Positions 17,455 through 33,619 of a DNA stretch of 64,000 nucleotides are shown one piece after another. The notes beneath the pieces were generated by a model, which saw only the letters and a list, made by a program, of their open reading frames with translations, did no database searches and was not told where the DNA came from. Source of the stretch: Melioribacter roseus. GTDB lineage: Bacteria > Bacteroidota > Ignavibacteria > Ignavibacteriales > Melioribacteraceae. The stretch covers positions 1-64,000 of the forward strand of contig DYHH01000016.1 of the NCBI GenBank assembly GCA_020724265.1. Direction: 5' to 3'. How positions within the stretch are numbered: the stretch's first letter is position 1; each line of letters begins with the position of its first letter. Both the position numbers and the translations under genes were made by a program.

Positions 17455-17730
17455 TCAAACAACTTCAATGTGAATTTTTCTTCCAAGAGTTTTTGCATAT
17501 CGACGAAGAGTTGAAAGCCTTATATCTTCCGAATGGTTTTCTATTCTAGAAATGACAGACTTCTTTGTATTCAACTTTACGGCTAATTCTTCCTGGGTCA
17601 TTCCACTTTCTTCTCTCAATTGTTTTAACAAAACACCAATTTTAAAATTCTGATACCCAATGTCATAATTTTTCGCAAAATCTTTGTCGTTTTCTTTTCT
17701 CTTTGCAATATACTTTTTCAGATCACTCAT
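17455..17730 (-). CDS. XRE-family antitoxin (HigA-like)
   Basis: This 91-residue protein has a helix-turn-helix of the Cro/CI type (LLKQLREESGMTQEELAVKL, then NTKKSVISRIENHSEDIRLS). It is the second gene of a toxin-first pair and overlaps the toxin gene by 8 bp. HigA-type antitoxins neutralise the toxin and repress the operon through a palindrome near the toxin start. Confidence 0.85.
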   Translation of the reverse strand: MSDLKKYIAKRKENDKDFAKNYDIGYQNFKIGVLLKQLREESGMTQEELAVKLNTKKSVISRIENHSEDIRLSTLRRYAKTLGRKIHIEVV

Positions 17731-18094
17731 TTTGTTTTTTCCTTTGATAAAAATTTCTTTTTCTTTCTTCAGCTAACTTAATTTCACTTAAAGGGGTTTT
17801 TTGTGATTTTTTAGTAAAACCATTTGTCACAATAAAGTTTTGACTACTTTCGAAAAAGCCCAGTAGTCTAAAAATATGGCTAGAAAAAACTATTCTTATT
17901 TCCCAAATATCTTTGGTATTAGTCAATTTCTTTAAATATTGCTTTGGAACTTTGGGTAAATCTTCAATCAATTCCAAAACCCAGGCTATCTTTTGAACAT
18001 GTTTGCCATCAAGAGAATCCAAATAATCAGCTACAGGAGATTTGCCGGAATCTGATTTATAAAAATTAACCTCACGCATAAATAAAGTTAGCAT
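17723..18094 (-). CDS. RelE/HigB-like (Gp49 family) toxin
   Basis: The protein of 118-123 residues fits the phage-derived Gp49-like/HigB mRNA interferase group: SPVADYLDSLDGKHVQKIAWVLELI, then IWEIRIVFSSHIFRLLGFF, then a basic FTKKSQKTPLSEIKLAEERK end. Such toxins cut mRNA on the ribosome. Two starts are possible, ATG at 18094 or at 18079 (MREVNFYK); the latter fits the family better. Both lie within or beside the operator palindrome. Confidence 0.85.
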   Translation of the reverse strand: MLTLFMREVNFYKSDSGKSPVADYLDSLDGKHVQKIAWVLELIEDLPKVPKQYLKKLTNTKDIWEIRIVFSSHIFRLLGFFESSQNFIVTNGFTKKSQKTPLSEIKLAEERKRNFYQRKKQNE

Positions 18095-20252: not shown

Positions 20253-21380
20253 CTAATGAATTTCCTTTTTATAACATCTTCTTCTTTTATGTTGTCGATG
20301 TTCGAAAAATTTCCACTGCGCTTGTACTTTTGAATTACTTTCAAGTTCTCTATTTGTTTCTACAAGACGAATGTTATTTTTAATAATCAGTTTGTTTATT
20401 TCATTCATTAAAATTGCATTTACACCTTTGTCCTGCATATCGGGACGAACAGCGGTTAAATACAAATCCAACCCGGGATTATTTTTCATCGCTTTAAGAA
20501 TATAAATAAAACCAAACGGAAATAGTTTGCCTTTTGCTTTCTGGAATGCTCTTGAAAGTGACGGCATCGTAATTCCGAAAGCAACCATTTCATTTTTTTC
20601 ATTCAGCACAACAGGCAAGTATTCCGGTTTAATAAAACCGAAATACTGTTTTACATACATGTCAATTTGTTTGTCGGAAAGTTCAACGAAACCGTAAAGG
20701 TCTTTATAGGAAGAATTAATCAAATAAAACATCTCTCTTGCATAAGGTAAAAGTTCTTTTGGTTTGTTAACACGAAGCACATGTAGTTTGTTTCTATTCA
20801 AAGCAATGTCGCTAATTCGGCTGATCTTTTCCGGTACCGGATCCGAAGTCATTTTAACTTGGTACTCAATCCAATCAATATCTTTTGTATAGCCGTTTCT
20901 TTCTATTAGTCTGGGATAATATGGATAATTATAAATAGCACCAAGTGTACTTACCTCGTCAAATCCTTCAATAAGCGTTCCTTCTCCGTCCATATCGGTA
21001 AAGCCAAGCGGACCGTGGACTTCATGCATATCTTTTTCTTTAGCCCAATTTTCAACAGTACTTAAAAGTGAAGAACAAACTTCTTCATCGTCGATAAAAT
21101 CAATCCACCCGAAACGCATAATTTTTTTATTGAACTTATCATTGAACTTGTGATTAATTATGCCGGCAATTCTTCCAACGAGTTCTTCGTTTTTATAAGC
21201 AAGCCAATATTTTGTTTCGCAAAAATCAAAGGCGGGATTTTTATCACGACGTAAAGAGAAAAGCTCTTCCTTTTTAAGAGGGGGTACCCAATACTTGTCG
21301 TTTTTATACAATTTGTATTGAAAATCTACAAAGCGTTTTAAATCTTTATCCGAGGTTACTTCTTTTAATGATATACTCAT
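20253..21380 (-). CDS. GNAT-fold N-acetyltransferase-like protein
   Basis: The 375-residue protein belongs to a conserved family with N-terminal FQYKLYKNDKYWVPPL and ETKYWLAYKNEELVGRIAGI, followed by a GPLGFTDMDGEGTLIEGFDE block. The C-terminal half carries a second GNAT-like domain (YLTAVRPDMQDKGVNAILMNEI) and ends WKFFEHRQHKRRRCY. By recall, this family is widespread in Bacteroidota with no known substrate. It is monocistronic and convergent with the hydrolase gene. Confidence 0.75.
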   Translation of the reverse strand: MSISLKEVTSDKDLKRFVDFQYKLYKNDKYWVPPLKKEELFSLRRDKNPAFDFCETKYWLAYKNEELVGRIAGIINHKFNDKFNKKIMRFGWIDFIDDEEVCSSLLSTVENWAKEKDMHEVHGPLGFTDMDGEGTLIEGFDEVSTLGAIYNYPYYPRLIERNGYTKDIDWIEYQVKMTSDPVPEKISRISDIALNRNKLHVLRVNKPKELLPYAREMFYLINSSYKDLYGFVELSDKQIDMYVKQYFGFIKPEYLPVVLNEKNEMVAFGITMPSLSRAFQKAKGKLFPFGFIYILKAMKNNPGLDLYLTAVRPDMQDKGVNAILMNEINKLIIKNNIRLVETNRELESNSKVQAQWKFFEHRQHKRRRCYKKEIH

Positions 21381-21661
21381 ATTCTCCGGCAGCTGAAATT
21401 ACGAAGTCGAAACAATTAACTTTTCGAAACGATAGTTTTCGTAAAGAGGAAAGCTGTTGTTTAATTTGAAATTGCAAACACAAAAATGCAAAAATTAATT
21501 AATGATACAAGAGATAAATTTTATATGTTTTCTCTAATTATATATTCGACATCTTGCTTTAAGATGAAATCGGATTAATTGATTGCTGTTTACTTTAAAC
21601 TTGATTCTAATTGGAATTAGAAATATTTTGATTACCGGCAATCAACTTTTATCAAACTTTA

Positions 21662-21877
21662 ATGAGTCAGTTAGATTTGATGCTTACATCAATCATACCG
21701 ATTATTTTTGGTTTAGTTTTAATACTATTTAATAAACTAATTACAGAGAGTTATGAAAAGATTGCTAAACGTGACGGATCTGCTTTTCGCAGATTTATTA
21801 CAACAACTCGAATTATTATCGGTGGAGTGTTTTTTATTGTTGTCGGTATTATAAAATTAATTGAAAGTGATATTTGA
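21662..21877 (+). CDS. Small two-helix membrane protein
   Basis: The 71-residue protein has a hydrophobic helix at about 8-25, a basic amphipathic loop (ESYEKIAKRDGSAFRRF) and a second helix at 48-66. Its stop codon overlaps a second, similar short frame (TTGA). It lies about 130 bp before the reverse-transcriptase RNA. Family unknown. Confidence 0.5.
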   Translation: MSQLDLMLTSIIPIIFGLVLILFNKLITESYEKIAKRDGSAFRRFITTTRIIIGGVFFIVVGIIKLIESDI

Positions 21878-21996
21878 TTTCTTGGGATAAAATATTACTT
21901 AATAGCGCACCAATACTTGCGGGTATAGTTGCTATTATATTTAACAAACAAATTAACGAGAGCATAATTAAATTCTATACTATAAATTTAAAATGA
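21874..21996 (+). CDS. 40-residue membrane peptide related to the preceding protein
   Basis: A TTG at 21874, overlapping the previous stop codon (TTGA), opens 40 codons to TGA at 21994-21996. The product, with SAPILAGIVAIIFNKQINES, aligns with SIIPIIFGLVLILFNKLITES in the preceding protein, so it is a shortened paralogue lacking the second helix. It may be a real coupled peptide or the remnant of a duplicated gene. Confidence 0.4.
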   Translation: MISWDKILLNSAPILAGIVAIIFNKQINESIIKFYTINLK

Positions 21997-22006
21997 GATA
22001 ATTATA

Positions 22007-22123
22007 GGGCGAGGCATTTAAAAAACAATCTGGGCAGTCAATAACTCTAGTTGTTTTGATTAGTTCTCTAACTCATTCAATTTCGAGTGACTTCTCGGTA
22101 AAACACAACACATTACCTCGCCC
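22007..22123 (+). ncRNA. Structured non-coding RNA of the two-reverse-transcriptase locus
   Basis: GGGCGAGG (22007-22014) is perfectly complementary to CCTCGCCC (22116-22123), a GC-rich closing stem in very AT-rich DNA. Inside it AGTCA (22036-22040) can pair with TGACT (22088-22092), a hairpin ATAAC-TCTA-GTTGT (or 6 bp using 22040) occupies 22040-22055, and ACTC/GAGT form another at 22071-22088. The segment 22093-22115 stays unpaired and holds AACACAACACA (22102-22112). An alternative hairpin, GGTAA/TTACC (22097-22101/22113-22117), would present the same AC-rich bases as an 11-nt loop. The RNA ends 5 bp before the first reverse-transcriptase start codon. Boundaries are inferred from the stem. 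Confidence 0.7.
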
Positions 22124-22128
22124 TTATT

Positions 22129-23442
22129 ATGAAAAGATATTTAACAAAAGATAATTTAGATAAGATTTTTGAAACGTATTCATCTACTCTGAAAACAGGT
22201 GTAGATAAGATTACAAGTCAAAAGTTTTTTGAAATTAAGAACGATGAGTTTGATCTTATAATTGAAAAATCTTTATCTCAGGAATACAAGTTTACAAGAT
22301 GGAAAAAAATTTTATTGTCAAACAATCGCGAAGCATATATCCCGACAGTACGGGATAGAATTTTAATAGAGTTATTACATAGAATTTTACGAAAAAAATA
22401 TCGAGTTAGATATGAGAATAGACATAGAATAATTAGTGTTCTTAAAAGCAAATTGGAAACGCATATTGATCGCCATGTTTTTCGATTGGATATAAAGAAA
22501 TTCTTTCCCTCAATACCACATACGTTATTATTAAATAGAATAAAAAAACAATCGCTATTATCTCCCTTTGAGTATTACTTAGTCAAAGAGTATCTGAAAA
22601 ATAAAAATGGTAAAGGAGTTCCGATAGGATTATCTCTCAGCAGTCTTCTAGCTGAAATATATTTAGAAGAGTTTGATCGCAAGATGAGGAGGATAGATCA
22701 AAGAATTTGTTGTTATTATAGGTATGTAGATGATATAGTATTAATCTTTAATGGCAATTTACAGACAGAAGAAATAAAGTATATCGAGAAAACAATATTC
22801 AGAATATTTAAGGAGTTCGGACTTAAAAACAACAATGAAAAATATATGAATGTTTTGTTCCAATCAAAATCAAATCTATTCAATTCATTCAGTTATTTAG
22901 GATATAAGTTTATCAAAGTTCGTGGACAATTAAAGTTATTTATAGATGATAAAAAATTAATAAAAATACTAAACAAAATTGACCTTACCTTTAACGACTA
23001 TGCAACTAATAAAAATTTGGACCTATTAAAAGAAAGACTTCGATTTCTCGTTAGAAGAAATACAATGCTAAAAAAGAATCCTCATTTAGAAAGAAATTTG
23101 AATTTAATAAAAAGACCTAGACTAGTGAATTATGGTACTGTAGAAAATTATAAAAGTGTTTGTTCAGAACAGTGGAAAGGGTTAGACAGATATTTGCAAA
23201 GTAGGTTTTACAATGTTCTGCAAAATAAAATAAAAAAAGATCGTCAATTAAAAAATGAAATATTCTCTCTTTCGTTTGCCAGATCTGTTGACTCTGGAGC
23301 AATAAATCTTTTTCACAAAAAAGACAATGATTACTTTCGCAGAAAAATATTGTTACTTAATAAAAGTATGTCTCTTGCACAACTTATGAGATTCAATCGA
23401 AAAGAACTTGAGAAAACATATAAAGAAATTCTAAAAATATAA
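22129..23442 (+). CDS. drt3a: Antiviral reverse transcriptase, Drt3a-like (UG3 group)
   Basis: The 437-residue protein is a complete reverse-transcriptase core: IPTVRDRILIELLHRIL in the fingers, motif A FRLDIKKFFPSI (D121), motif B GVPIGLSLSSLLAEIYL (163-179) and motif C YRYVDDIVLIF (YVDD 199-202). A helical thumb and C-terminal region of about 180 residues follows. No maturase, endonuclease or protease domain is attached. It is the first of two different reverse transcriptases directly after a structured RNA, which is the layout I know for DRT type 3. In that system this enzyme would copy the RNA. The UG3 assignment is by architecture and recall, not by a profile search. Confidence 0.8.
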   Translation: MKRYLTKDNLDKIFETYSSTLKTGVDKITSQKFFEIKNDEFDLIIEKSLSQEYKFTRWKKILLSNNREAYIPTVRDRILIELLHRILRKKYRVRYENRHRIISVLKSKLETHIDRHVFRLDIKKFFPSIPHTLLLNRIKKQSLLSPFEYYLVKEYLKNKNGKGVPIGLSLSSLLAEIYLEEFDRKMRRIDQRICCYYRYVDDIVLIFNGNLQTEEIKYIEKTIFRIFKEFGLKNNNEKYMNVLFQSKSNLFNSFSYLGYKFIKVRGQLKLFIDDKKLIKILNKIDLTFNDYATNKNLDLLKERLRFLVRRNTMLKKNPHLERNLNLIKRPRLVNYGTVENYKSVCSEQWKGLDRYLQSRFYNVLQNKIKKDRQLKNEIFSLSFARSVDSGAINLFHKKDNDYFRRKILLLNKSMSLAQLMRFNRKELEKTYKEILKI

Positions 23443-23452
23443 TAGGTGTTTT

Positions 23453-25351
23453 TTGAAAAATACATTTCTATTGACTGACGTACTTCCAGAAGAGTTGCCT
23501 TTACACTACAGCAATTATGACTTTTATAATTTTATAGATTCTAGTGAAATATGGTCTTCAATTTCTTCAATTGAATCTAGTTTAGGGATTGAGACTGAGC
23601 CTTTCAGTTTTTTTATATCAAAAACAGGTCGCGGGAAAAGATTGATGGGGTTGCCTCATCCGATAAGCCAACTTATATTTACAAAATTTATTGAATTGTA
23701 TGATGAGGAGCTTTTACATTATTTTAAAACGAATCATATTTTTTCATGTAGATATCCTTCAGCTATTACTCGTCAAAAGCATATGTCTGAAGATATTGTC
23801 GAAGTGGATATTGAAGATTGGAAATTAGAAAGGGTGAGAAACTACTTTAAGTATCCCAAAGTGACAATTGTTGACTTATATAAATCAAGACAATTATTTG
23901 ATCTTGAGTTGAAGTATTCACTTCTTGAAAAGTTAGATATACAGCAATTCTTTTCTAGTATTTATACTCACTCTATAGAGTGGGCCTATCTAGGAACAAA
24001 AGCCTTAGCTAAAAAAATTAGATTTAATAAGAATACGTTTAATTTAGGCTCAGTCTTAGATAGAATAATGCAGAAATCAAACAACTCTGAAACCAATGGT
24101 ATCTTAATTGGTCCTGAATTTTCAAGAATTGTTTCCGAGGTTATTCTTTCAAGAGTTGATAAACTGGTCTATATTGATCTAACGAAAAGAAATTTGCTGT
24201 TTAAGGATGATTACGAAGTTGTAAGGTATATCGATGACATTTTTGTATTTACTAATGATAACAAAATTGCTGAAACAATCATAGATGTTTATATAAAACG
24301 ATTGACTGAATTTAAACTTTCAATCAACCACGAGAAAAAATTCACAGAAAAGAGACCTTTCTTAAAAGATCATTCTTGGGTACCGAAACTAAAGAGAATA
24401 ATATCCAAATTAAGTTATTGGCTTAGAGACGAAAGTAGTAGTTTTAATAAGAAAATTTCATCGAAACGTAACATTGATTACAAAATTTCACTGATTAATG
24501 AGATAAAAGCTTTATTAAATGAATATACTAATCACTCACATCATATAATTTCATATCTTCTGTCAACTCTGTCAACTCAAACAGAAGAGATTTTTAAAAA
24601 CTTAATTAGTCTTGAAAAAATACAGGATGAACTTATTAATCATAGATTGCCTTATGTTCTTGACATAATTCAGTATCTGTTGATACTCTCGCCTAACACA
24701 AAAAATGTAATTAAATATTGCAAAACCTGTTATAACATTTTAAATATTAATAAGGATCTTGAGGAATTAGTTTTTAAGAAAAATTATGAAATATTAAAAT
24801 TTTGTGATAGTAATAATTCCGAGTTGTTGAATATTGTTATTATGTCTGCTAAGCTTAAAAAGGATTTTCCAAAGGTTATTCTATCTAATCAATTAAGTAC
24901 AACACCAAATTATTTCTCATTAGGTGTTATTTCATTTTATCTTTCAAAATTTAACAGAAAGTATAAATATCCCGAGATTTGTGATAAGGTTAATAAAGTT
25001 GTAATTGATATTCTTAACGATGTTGAATTTAATTATCACCTTGATATAAATGCAAATAATGTTGATAAACAAGTCAAATTCCTATTATGCTCTTTCGCAC
25101 CTATTATATTACACGATCTATATTCAGCGAACATTATATCTATAGAAAATAAAGTGAAAATTAAATCTTTGTTTGATAAAATAAATTCGTTATTACCAAA
25201 AATTAAAAACGAAAAATTTGTTTATCTTTTCGGAAAATATATTGTTGAACTAAATAAACCATTTATGAGATGGGATTACGATGTTGATATTGATATTCCT
25301 AAAATTATTCAAAGAAAATTAGAAGCCAATTTCTTAAAAGGATATGATTAA
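23453..25351 (+). CDS. drt3b: Antiviral reverse transcriptase, Drt3b-like (UG8 group)
   Basis: The start is a TTG at 23453 behind TAGGTG, 10 bp after the first reverse-transcriptase gene. The N-terminus LLTDVLPEELPLHYSNYDFY recalls other Drt3b proteins. Motif A is LEKLDIQQFFSSI (D162), motif B-like NGILIGPEFSRIVSEVIL (215-232) and motif C VVRYIDDIFVF (YIDD 259-262), so the active site is intact. About 370 residues of Lys/Ile/Asn-rich helical sequence follow, typical of the unknown-group antiviral enzymes. It shares little sequence with its partner. Base composition is richer in A+T than the flanking metabolic genes, consistent with transfer. Confidence 0.8.
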   Translation: MKNTFLLTDVLPEELPLHYSNYDFYNFIDSSEIWSSISSIESSLGIETEPFSFFISKTGRGKRLMGLPHPISQLIFTKFIELYDEELLHYFKTNHIFSCRYPSAITRQKHMSEDIVEVDIEDWKLERVRNYFKYPKVTIVDLYKSRQLFDLELKYSLLEKLDIQQFFSSIYTHSIEWAYLGTKALAKKIRFNKNTFNLGSVLDRIMQKSNNSETNGILIGPEFSRIVSEVILSRVDKLVYIDLTKRNLLFKDDYEVVRYIDDIFVFTNDNKIAETIIDVYIKRLTEFKLSINHEKKFTEKRPFLKDHSWVPKLKRIISKLSYWLRDESSSFNKKISSKRNIDYKISLINEIKALLNEYTNHSHHIISYLLSTLSTQTEEIFKNLISLEKIQDELINHRLPYVLDIIQYLLILSPNTKNVIKYCKTCYNILNINKDLEELVFKKNYEILKFCDSNNSELLNIVIMSAKLKKDFPKVILSNQLSTTPNYFSLGVISFYLSKFNRKYKYPEICDKVNKVVIDILNDVEFNYHLDINANNVDKQVKFLLCSFAPIILHDLYSANIISIENKVKIKSLFDKINSLLPKIKNEKFVYLFGKYIVELNKPFMRWDYDVDIDIPKIIQRKLEANFLKGYD

Positions 25352-25383
25352 TTGCACTCTCCGTTCAAAATTCCGTATCTTTA
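25352..25383 (+). promoter_or_regulatory. Bacteroidota-type promoter of the KamA-like gene
   Basis: TTG (25352-25354) and TATCTTTA (25376-25383) are separated by 21 bp and match the TTG/TAnnTTTG pattern except for the last base. The start codon lies 45 bp downstream behind AGAGGA. Confidence 0.45.
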
Positions 25384-25428
25384 AAAAACACGCCCAAAAT
25401 CATTTATAAATTAATAAAAGAGGAAATC

Positions 25429-27645
25429 ATGCCTTACCACGAAGACCTCGACAAAATTGCTATTTCTGTTAAGTCACACAGGTTATTAAAAAAACTTCTA
25501 AAAGAAAATCCCAAACTTGAAGAGATAATGTTCGCCGCTAAGAACGAGACCGAAGCATTGATCGGAATTAAGGAATGGGTAAAAACTTATTTAAGAGATC
25601 ATCCCAAAGCACTTGAGTATTATGAAAAAGGTCCGTCAAGCGGTTATTCATTTAAGGACTTAAAGTGGAGTAGTATCGCTGCAATCAGAATTTTGGATTA
25701 CATAGATAATGCCGGAAGAAAATTTATCGACTTAAACTTACGCGGACAACTTGCGGTTAGTAATCCTATTAAATTAATTTGGCTCGGAGTTAATAAAGGT
25801 ACCGGCGGTGCCAAACCCGATTTCTTTGAAGATATGCTGCATCTATTCAGGCAATTAACCGGCAAAGATGAACGAAGACAAATTTCAAAAGAAGAACTTT
25901 TTGAATATATGGACAGATATCCTTCCGGTCTCGATCCGCGAATTGTTGAACTACGAAAAGAAAACCGCGATAGAATAATCAATATCATCATAGATAAAAT
26001 TGACGAAGGCGAGATCAACGATTCAAAATATAAATTCGAAAACAATCAAACACGCGAAGAGAAATTCAACACGGTTTTAGAGTGGTGGAAGGAAAGTACT
26101 TTTCATTTAAGATTTGCAGTAAGAAGCGCAGACTTACTTAACGAAATGCTCGGCTTCTCTCTCGATCCCGACACGATGAAAATTTTATACGATGCGGAGA
26201 AACAAGGAATTCCTTTCTTTGTTAATCCATACTACTTATCGCTGCTTCATGTGCGTGTACCATACTTTGCAATCGGTGCCGATCTCGCAATTCGTCATTA
26301 TGTTGTTTACAGTAAACAACTGGTTGATGAATTTGGATTTATAAACGCTTGGGAAAAGGAAGATAAAGTTGAACCGGGCAAACCGAATGTTGCCGGATGG
26401 ATTTTACCTTCGCATCATAATGTTCACCGGCGTTATCCCGAAGTTGCTATACTAATTCCCGATACAATGGGAAGGGCTTGCGGGGGACTTTGCGCATCAT
26501 GTCAAAGAATGTATGACTTCCAAAACGGTTATCTAAATTTTAATCTAAACAAACTAAAACCGGATGAAACTTGGCCCGAAAAACTTTTGAGATTAATGAA
26601 GTATTTTGAAGAAGACTCACAGCTTAGAGATATTTTAATTACAGGCGGCGATGCATTAATGAGCAGTGATAAATCGTTAAAACAAATTTTGGACGCAGTT
26701 TATGAAATGGCTAAGCGTAAAAAAGAAGCAAATGAAAAACGTTCCGATAACGAAAAATATGCCGAGTTAGTTAGAGTAAGATTAGGTACACGATTGCCGG
26801 TTTATTTACCGATGCGTGTTACCGATAATCTTGCCGCAATTCTAAAAGAATTCAAAGATAAGGCGATTGAAATTGGTGTTAAGCAATTTGTAATTCAAAC
26901 ACATTTTGAAGCACCGATGGAAGTAACTCCCGAAGCAAAAGAAGCAATTCAAAAATTTATTGAATCGGGATGGATTGTAACTAATCAACATGTATATACT
27001 GCGGCTGCATCGAGGCGCGGACATAATTTAAAACTTCGACAAGTTCTTAATGAAGTCGGGGTACTTCCGTATTACACATTTTCGGTAAAAGGTTACATGG
27101 AAAATTATTATAACTTCGCACCCAACTCACGAGCTGTGCAAGAAAGCTGCGAAGAAAAAATAATCGGTGAAATACCGCATGATAATATTGATGAGATCAG
27201 ACAATTACCTGAAAATCCCGAACAAATGGTTGAAAATATTAGAGCCGTAAAACGTGATGCAAATATTCCGTTTCTTGCTACCGATAGAAATGTATTGAAC
27301 TTACCCGGTGTTGGTAAGAGTTTAACTTATCGCACAATCGGAATAACACGTTACGGAAGAAGAATACTTTCATTCGATCATGATGCAACAAGAACACACA
27401 GTCCGATTCTTGAAAAGATGGAAGAGATTGTTGTAATAGAATGTAAATCGATAAGTGAATACTTAAAACAGTTAGAAGATATTGGTGAAGATGTTTCAGA
27501 GTATTCAGGTTTATTCGGTTATTCAATCGGGGAAACGGAACCGCGTATGCCGATTTATGAATATCCAGATTTTGAATTTGAGGTAACAGATGAAATGACA
27601 AACCTTGAAGTCCCCGATACAATAATGGATGGAGTTGGGGAGTAG
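25429..27645 (+). CDS. KamA-family radical SAM protein with a long N-terminal region
   Basis: The 738-residue protein contains a lysine 2,3-aminomutase-like radical SAM domain with CGGLCASC (C351, C355, C358) for the 4Fe-4S cluster, ILITGGDALM, RVRLGTRLPVYLPMR and the downstream THFEAPMEVTPEAKEA block. Classical KamA/EpmB enzymes are about 340-420 residues; here some 310 extra residues precede the cluster and about 150 follow the core. The family moves amino groups using SAM and PLP; I cannot confirm the PLP lysine. The substrate is unknown. It is monocistronic. Confidence 0.8.
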   Translation: MPYHEDLDKIAISVKSHRLLKKLLKENPKLEEIMFAAKNETEALIGIKEWVKTYLRDHPKALEYYEKGPSSGYSFKDLKWSSIAAIRILDYIDNAGRKFIDLNLRGQLAVSNPIKLIWLGVNKGTGGAKPDFFEDMLHLFRQLTGKDERRQISKEELFEYMDRYPSGLDPRIVELRKENRDRIINIIIDKIDEGEINDSKYKFENNQTREEKFNTVLEWWKESTFHLRFAVRSADLLNEMLGFSLDPDTMKILYDAEKQGIPFFVNPYYLSLLHVRVPYFAIGADLAIRHYVVYSKQLVDEFGFINAWEKEDKVEPGKPNVAGWILPSHHNVHRRYPEVAILIPDTMGRACGGLCASCQRMYDFQNGYLNFNLNKLKPDETWPEKLLRLMKYFEEDSQLRDILITGGDALMSSDKSLKQILDAVYEMAKRKKEANEKRSDNEKYAELVRVRLGTRLPVYLPMRVTDNLAAILKEFKDKAIEIGVKQFVIQTHFEAPMEVTPEAKEAIQKFIESGWIVTNQHVYTAAASRRGHNLKLRQVLNEVGVLPYYTFSVKGYMENYYNFAPNSRAVQESCEEKIIGEIPHDNIDEIRQLPENPEQMVENIRAVKRDANIPFLATDRNVLNLPGVGKSLTYRTIGITRYGRRILSFDHDATRTHSPILEKMEEIVVIECKSISEYLKQLEDIGEDVSEYSGLFGYSIGETEPRMPIYEYPDFEFEVTDEMTNLEVPDTIMDGVGE

Positions 27646-32399: not shown

Positions 32400-32491
32400 T
32401 ATATCCCTCTAAAATTTCATTTCATTAAAACAAAACTTGCACATCTCACTTTTTATATTAAATTGGTTTTTTGATAATTACGGTTAATAAT

Positions 32492-33619
32492 ATGGAAAGT
32501 AGAGAAATATATTTGCGTTATCCTGAATCAAGAGATGTTGTTTTTATTCTCGGTGCGGGGGCTTCACATCCCGACGGTGTTCCGCTTCAAAGGCATATTC
32601 TCCCTTTAATTCTTTCCGGTGAAATTGAAGAAATTAATAATTCATATCTCGGTAAACTTGTAGCTGATTTTATTAATCATAATTACAAATACGGAAAACA
32701 AATTGATCAATACCCCAGACTTGAAGCGGTGTTCGGATACCTGGATTATTTCATTCAGCAAAATGAAAGTCTGAGTGCAGATTATCCTTATTCAACATTA
32801 CTTTCGATTAAAGAAGCATTGATAAAATTAATTCACTACGTGGTAGATCTTAAATCAAATAAAGGAAGTAATTACTATCATAAATTTTGGGAAGCGGTTC
32901 AAAAGTACAATTCAAATATTTCTATTATTACGCTTAACTATGATACCCTTTTAGAACAAAGTTTTCGTTTTCTATTTGAGAAATTCGGTTACTTAGATTA
33001 CTCGATTCATTTAATGAATTATGATAAACTTCTTGAAAACAAAAAATTTACTAGCTGGATAAATCCGAGGGAACCGATTCCATTATTATCAGGCAGCTTA
33101 CCTGTTCCGATAAAAATTTTAAAAATTCACGGAAGCTTAAATTGGAAATACTGTAATTGCTGTAACCAGATTTTGTTAACTCCTTGGGATAAAAAAATTG
33201 ATTTGAATAAAGGAAAATTTTTAGGTTATACTTATCCCGAAAGAACAGAGTACGAGTATAATTGTCCGTTGGACGGAACAGATTTTCAAACGCTTATCAT
33301 GCCGCCGTCGAACATAAAGACTCTTACACACCCGGCTATTTCACAACTATTAAGTGAATCGGCAAGAGAAATAAGGTCCACAAAAAAAATTGTTTTTATC
33401 GGGTATTCTTTGTCGGATGCAGATGTTCACATAAAAGCGCTGTTTCAAAAAAATTTAGAAGAGAATGTAAAAATTTATGTTGTGAATTCTCGCTTGAACA
33501 AGAAAATGAAATTGCGTTTTCAATCACTTCATCAAAATGTTGAAGTAGTTGAATCACCTTTTGAAGAAGTAGTTCAAGATGAAGAACTTTTACAAAAATT
33601 ATTTTCTTTAGAGCAGTAA
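32492..33619 (+). CDS. Stand-alone SIR2-like NAD hydrolase domain protein
   Basis: Residues 17-30 carry the NAD-binding GAGAS loop (VFILGAGASHPDGV). Further motifs are ITLNYDTLLEQ (the TxNYD element), KIHGSLNW with the catalytic His, and FIGYSLSDADVH near the end. A Cys cluster CNCC...CP near residue 222 may bind zinc. SIR2_2 proteins often act in phage defence by destroying NAD. Here no partner gene (TIR, Argonaute, DUF4297, HerA) is adjacent, so the role is open. I start at ATG 32492; a TTG at 32471 is also in frame. Confidence 0.82.
   Translation: MESREIYLRYPESRDVVFILGAGASHPDGVPLQRHILPLILSGEIEEINNSYLGKLVADFINHNYKYGKQIDQYPRLEAVFGYLDYFIQQNESLSADYPYSTLLSIKEALIKLIHYVVDLKSNKGSNYYHKFWEAVQKYNSNISIITLNYDTLLEQSFRFLFEKFGYLDYSIHLMNYDKLLENKKFTSWINPREPIPLLSGSLPVPIKILKIHGSLNWKYCNCCNQILLTPWDKKIDLNKGKFLGYTYPERTEYEYNCPLDGTDFQTLIMPPSNIKTLTHPAISQLLSESAREIRSTKKIVFIGYSLSDADVHIKALFQKNLEENVKIYVVNSRLNKKMKLRFQSLHQNVEVVESPFEEVVQDEELLQKLFSLEQ

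Follow-up and report, generated by a model that had tools for sequence, protein, structure and literature searches.

Which kind of system is formed by two adjacent, different reverse transcriptase (RT) genes and the structured RNA in front of them in Melioribacter roseus (Bacteroidota, Ignavibacteria)? The window analysed here is a stretch of 64,000 nucleotides (nt), positions 1 to 64,000 of contig DYHH01000016.1 (assembly GCA_020724265.1, forward strand), and an initial annotation had proposed that its segment 22007-25351 is a DRT type 3 locus, consisting of a UG3 RT, a UG8 RT and an RNA. These coordinates are right to within a base, and in profile searches Drt3a and Drt3b are the best matches of the two proteins. 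I consider it likely that the locus belongs to a divergent DRT3 clade and is a complete antiphage module, probably a functional one, making a poly(dT-dG)/poly(dC-dA) duplex. Judged by its sequence it counts as DRT3 in a broad sense but not as a member of the canonical EcoDRT3-type subgroup; DRT3 itself is a system that is already well characterised. The genes concerned are the following.

22129..23442, plus strand: drt3a (UG3, Class 2, predicted RNA-templated RT), 437 aa, with D121 and YVDD at residues 199-202
23453..25351, plus strand: drt3b (UG8, Class 1 RT with an alpha-repeat C-terminal half), 632 aa, TTG start
24227..24238, plus strand: YIDD catalytic motif of Drt3b

Both genes are intact, differ from each other and are separated by exactly 10 bp, and AGGTG stands in front of the TTG start of drt3b. 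With D121 and D162 as the first catalytic aspartates and YIDD at residues 259-262 of Drt3b, both active sites are intact and all positions agree with those first annotated. A genome-wide count gives these two as the only RVT_1 genes in the 3.77-Mb genome. Since RVT_1 is the only Pfam domain in either protein, both lack a maturase, endonuclease or Cas1 domain, as had been claimed. The first protein matches the Drt3a profiles best (PADLOC 239 bits, 2.5e-71; NCBIfam 179.9 bits, 9.9e-53) and the second the Drt3b profiles (PADLOC 386 bits, 8e-116; NCBIfam 300.5 bits, 2.8e-89), in both collections by a wide margin over other profiles. Neither RT finds its best match among group II introns, retrons or diversity-generating retroelements (DGRs), the group II model reaching 92 bits against a cut-off of 300, and maturase, msr-msd or variable repeat-template repeat (VR-TR) parts appear neither as an extra Pfam domain nor as an Rfam match.

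Sequence comparison with solved structures puts two DRT3 entries, 26cz and 9z6y, closest. EcoDRT3 (Drt3a of UG3, Drt3b of UG8 and a non-coding RNA (ncRNA); PDB 26cz, 9z6y/9z6z; PMC13174585) has the same RT types in the same order as the window, at about 25-30% protein identity. Both AlphaFold (AF2) models are confident, with a predicted local distance difference test (pLDDT) score of 93 for Drt3a and 86 for Drt3b, whose C-terminal half is modelled as an alpha-solenoid. In a structure search of a PDB copy of April 2026, with DRT3 entries absent among the matches listed, the folds nearest to Drt3b are DRT6, UG15/DRT4 and AbiK, and those nearest to Drt3a are DRT9 RT-ncRNA complexes, as is expected of a Class 1 and a Class 2 enzyme, respectively.

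EcoDRT3b is a protein-templated poly(dC-dA) polymerase in which E22 selects dA, R241 selects dC, R71 assists and Y666 near the C-terminus primes synthesis (PMC13174585). The window's Drt3b keeps all four equivalents, E14, R63, R225 and Y631, the last of these assigned by position as the putative priming tyrosine.

23492..23494, plus strand: codon of E14 (EcoDRT3b E22, dA gate), by alignment
23639..23641, plus strand: codon of R63 (EcoDRT3b R71), by alignment
24125..24127, plus strand: codon of R225 (EcoDRT3b R241, dC specificity switch), by alignment
25343..25345, plus strand: codon of Y631, the penultimate residue of 632 (priming tyrosine Y666), by position

R225 is invariant in all 119 aligned Drt3b sequences and present in one of nine DRT4-type relatives, and in the same 119 the E14 position holds E or D in every scorable sequence but one. 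A C-terminal tyrosine is found in 100 of 103 canonical Drt3b proteins and in five of the six members of the window's clade. The Class 1 RTs DRT4, DRT6 and AbiK share the fold and the RT-alpha-repeat layout of the window's Drt3b; however, as a rule they lack the R241 gate, and they need no RNA-templated partner.

Relatives of the locus were sought by a Drt3b-alignment scan of 84,980 species genomes; the pair of Drt3a and Drt3b recurs in more than 100 loci. Five relatives found by the scan, with full-length Drt3b identities to the window of 32-39%, come from Bacillus sp. T33-2 (L067, 39%), Paenibacillus antarcticus (L068), a Clostridiales metagenome-assembled genome (L069), Alicyclobacillus sp. 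(L070) and Halobacillus litoralis (L071). In the Drt3b tree, for which 62 N-terminal residues of the window's protein were removed (the gate-residue counts used the full sequence), the window and these five Bacillota loci form a clade with an SH-aLRT support of 100. In the Drt3a tree, the window groups with L067, L068 and L070 (support 96), while the 98 canonical rows form a group of their own (support 99) from which 16 non-canonical rows are excluded; the window thus falls outside the canonical clade in both trees. In all five relatives drt3a and drt3b are divergent and share a gap with the RNA on the drt3a strand, whereas the window is the only one of the six members with a tandem drt3a-drt3b arrangement. 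Two sets of candidates were rejected as close relatives: L171, with 41% identity over 315 aa, belongs to a canonical lineage with L131, and the same-class Drt3b-like matches (L063-L066 and weaker ones) are of DRT4 type, without R225 and without a Drt3a.

The structured ncRNA that the initial annotation had placed immediately before the RT genes is borne out both by its folding energy and by its recurrence, as the homologous loci carry it as well. The folding energy of the segment 22003-22127 is -34.2 kcal/mol, whereas its dinucleotide shuffles give -18.3 +/- 3.0 (z -5.4, none of 200 as good), and the fold is therefore beyond chance. No Rfam family matches it. Its parts are as follows.

22006..22124, plus strand: structured non-coding RNA upstream of drt3a, from fold statistics, with the same architecture in five relatives
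22006..22014, plus strand: 5' strand of the closing stem, AGGGCGAGG, pairing with 22116-22124
22083..22098, plus strand: hairpin just ahead of the template, TCGAG-TGACTT-CTCGG, visible in the sequence
22103..22107, plus strand: template core ACACA, aligned with the template of the clade, unpaired probability 0.98-0.99
22108..22112, plus strand: second ACACA, adjoining the first, in the window only (period-5 AACACAACACA)
22116..22124, plus strand: 3' strand of the closing stem, CCTCGCCCT, ending 4 nt ahead of the drt3a ATG

Each of the six RNAs of the clade combines a long closing stem with internal hairpins and with one hairpin immediately 5' of the template. As they differ greatly in length and align poorly, the closing stem was tested directly. 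This stem of 8-9 bp recurs with differing sequence in the five relatives, and its eight inner pairs are paired in 48 of 48 cases across the six sequences; each position shows 2-4 pair types, that is, the pairs covary. The window's pre-template hairpin has a longer competitor in the minimum free energy fold; an equivalent short hairpin forms in L069 and L071. The templates of DRT10 and DRT3 likewise sit just past a stem-loop (PMC12632851, PMC13174585).

Between the pre-template hairpin and the 3' closing strand, ACACA is present in six of six RNAs, 26-66 nt ahead of the drt3a start and with an invariant G at -6 and A at -3, and it is the sole periodic pattern that all six have in common. ACACAC was found at the template site of none of them. 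Thus an unpaired AC-repeat template in an RNA with a long closing stem, together with the gate, catalytic and priming residues, is what the window and EcoDRT3 have in common, but in the window the RNA lies upstream of drt3a, not downstream of drt3b, and carries ACACA, not ACACAC.

In the published DRT3 systems the ncRNA lies downstream of drt3b and carries ACACAC (PMC13174585). An AC tract of at least 6 nt is present within 300 nt downstream of drt3b in 101 of 102 canonical loci, against a shuffling expectation of 12.6. The window lacks this trait of the canonical subgroup; only 77 bp separate its drt3b from the next gene. A CACACA 123 nt past the drt3b stop was rejected as a canonical template, as it lies inside a KamA-like coding sequence and recurs in a congener that has no DRT3, and other than the upstream ACACA no AC tract belongs to the cassette. 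A second Bacillota clade (L056, L079, L096, L114, L137) also has divergent drt3a and drt3b genes with an upstream RNA in the shared gap, and its template of 5-8 nt, ACACA to ACACACAC, lies early in the RNA, ahead of two or three hairpins. As this clade and DRT10, with an RT akin to Drt3a, also have the RNA upstream, the upstream position may be the older state. The initial annotation had expected that RNA and protein may differ from the studied cases, which holds for the opposite side of the RNA, the 5-nt core and the Bacillota relatives with divergent genes, although it did not see in what way. The papers on DRT3 consulted, which do not include Mestre 2022 and the Deng 2026 original, contain no mention of the upstream RNA, the ACACA core or this clade.

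A separate clade of Drt3 pairs, on phage or viral contigs, lacks an AC tract on either side of the pair (L163 4284-4449, L058 4324-4416, L057 3178-3431, L167 4370-4461). Instead, GTGT to GTGTGTG is found on the coding strand, in the structured stretch that separates drt3a from drt3b. This would reflect an antisense ncRNA whose template is ACACAC or else a GU template, and it would be a third position of the DRT3 RNA.

The boundaries of the element follow from comparison with the congener G120 (L191), in which the sequences corresponding to window positions 20265-21899 and 25358-27644 adjoin with about 40 bp between them, the window being about 3,458 bp longer.

21900..25357, plus strand: DRT3 cassette, the unit of presence and absence

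This segment is absent as a whole in the congener, which means that the RNA and both genes are gained or lost together. Among 294 genomes of the host's class the search brought up no further Drt3b of this kind; this patchiness, and the fact that the nearest relatives are Bacillota, make a horizontal acquisition of the cassette likely.

How such a module could act may be proposed by analogy with EcoDRT3, from which RNA binding, the products, priming, the duplex, abortive infection and the guarding of a nuclease are extrapolated. The upstream RNA would bind Drt3a and present the unpaired ACACA right after the hairpin, and Drt3a would copy it over and over, slipping back by one AC unit, into poly(dT-dG). 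Drt3b, without a nucleic-acid template, would prime on its C-terminal Y631 and, through the gates E14 and R225, produce the alternating poly(dC-dA). The two strands would then anneal into a simple-repeat duplex, which a host nuclease of the AddAB/RecBCD type would normally clear; a phage that blocks this nuclease, or triggers the system otherwise, would cause the duplex to accumulate and cell growth to stop. In the host genome greA lies next to an AddB-like nuclease gene, and the E. coli DRT3 system needs greA.

Several observations weigh against this reading. Both proteins remain below the NCBIfam equivalog cut-offs (179.9 against 200 for Drt3a, NF041747; 300.5 against 350 for Drt3b, NF041748). 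The same is true of the Drt3b of all six clade members, which score 300-343 (the five relatives 311-343), whereas two canonical Drt3b proteins tested against the NCBI model reach 570 (L054) and 738 (L075); because of these scores, current annotation misses the loci of the clade with the upstream RNA. The Drt3b of Paenibacillus antarcticus (L068, 4480-6420) has the other gate residues; however, it ends in SIGISGN, without the C-terminal tyrosine. A clade of six sequences limits the power to detect covariation in the RNA, and the closing stems of L067 and L068 are statistically weaker, being matched by 18 and 8 of 300 shuffles, respectively. The template is the 5-nt ACACA, and it is ACACAC whose activity has been demonstrated in E. 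coli. Lastly, the evidence for an AddAB-type nuclease in the host is the AddB-like gene.

The template also allows a different product. The system could be the same, with Drt3a using a template of the A-B-A' kind that DRT10 uses after a stem-loop (PMC12632851): the 11-nt period-5 run spanning the window's template, AACAC-AACAC-A, would then yield (TGTGT)n, only partly complementary to poly(dC-dA). The window's doubled ACACAACACA fits this, as do ACACAAC, common to the window and its three nearest relatives (AACAC-AAC in L067 and L068, ACACA-AC in L070), and the 7-nt unit of L071, CATTACA-CATTA. Moreover, the profile of UG17, the RT of DRT10, is close to the window's Drt3a, a Class 2 enzyme (172 bits, below the 239 bits of the Drt3a profile). 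DRT10 (UG17 RT, SLATT protein and ncRNA; PMC12632851) resembles the window in its upstream RNA, but it differs in that the window has an AC-type template and no DRT10-type SLATT partner, a second RT standing in its place. I consider the pentanucleotide product unlikely, as ACACA is the only period found in six of six RNAs and the Drt3b gates predict a strict CA alternation with which (TGTGT)n would not pair; the dinucleotide product is preferred on these two grounds. In addition, at a comparable site the templates of the second Bacillota clade range from ACACA to ACACACAC, which speaks for ACACA being the same dinucleotide template in shortened form. That the Drt3a of this clade makes some repeat other than (TG)n, with an imperfect duplex being tolerated or with Drt3b writing a matching non-dinucleotide strand that the protein itself controls, has a similarly small chance of being right. 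If it were true, the protein-templated code of Drt3b could change along with the RNA template.

Alternatively, the RNA might be a 5' leader that regulates translation of drt3a and acts as neither template nor cofactor, the true ncRNA being elsewhere or lost. With 4 nt between the end of its structure and the start codon, it lies within the drt3a leader. This explanation is nevertheless very unlikely, given an unpaired ACACA in an invariant context in six diverged loci, the absence of any other AC tract in the cassette, and the finding that DRT3 cannot do without its template-bearing RNA (PMC13174585). That the cassette has decayed or been domesticated and does not serve defence would agree with its being alone in its genome class and patchy, but I give this just as slight a chance, as both frames are open, all catalytic and gate residues are kept and the closing stem is intact. 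That two unrelated RTs (group II maturase, retron, DGR or DRT4/AbiK type) lie side by side by chance, for which weaker matches to TIGR04416 and Drt4 could be cited, is almost certainly wrong and already contradicted by best profiles that lead widely, by the recurrence of the pair and by the agreement of the Drt3a and Drt3b trees.

DRT3 is the case in which a DNA sequence is dictated by the active site of a protein in place of a nucleic acid, and the experimental knowledge consulted here comes from E. coli systems with a downstream RNA. Where the protein gates are retained while the RNA has moved and the template has shrunk to ACACA, as in the window's clade, the essential parts of the system can be told from those that are free to vary. 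The natural templates of this clade and of the second Bacillota clade (ACACA, ACACAACACA and ACACACAC) form a series on which the relation of template length and unit to the product, and the matching of the two strands, could be examined.

Other genes in the neighbourhood deserve mention. Ahead of the cassette, 21663-21996 holds two small open reading frames (ORFs) predicted to be membrane or hydrophobic proteins; the first, 21663-21878, was considered as a DRT3 accessory and rejected as native, being present in the congener without DRT3, and the second is largely not conserved in the congener and lies mostly inside the inserted part. A Gp49/HigB-like toxin and helix-turn-helix antitoxin pair is encoded at 17455-18094, about 4 kb upstream of the cassette, and a SIR2-like protein (Pfam SIR2_2; PADLOC Aga_SIR2/SIR2), possibly another defence gene, at 32471-33619, about 7 kb from it. 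Finally, in the DRT3 locus of an E. coli plasmid (L048, 1865-5250; CP083496.1), drt3b is split in two frames, which is probably a pseudogene or a sequencing error.

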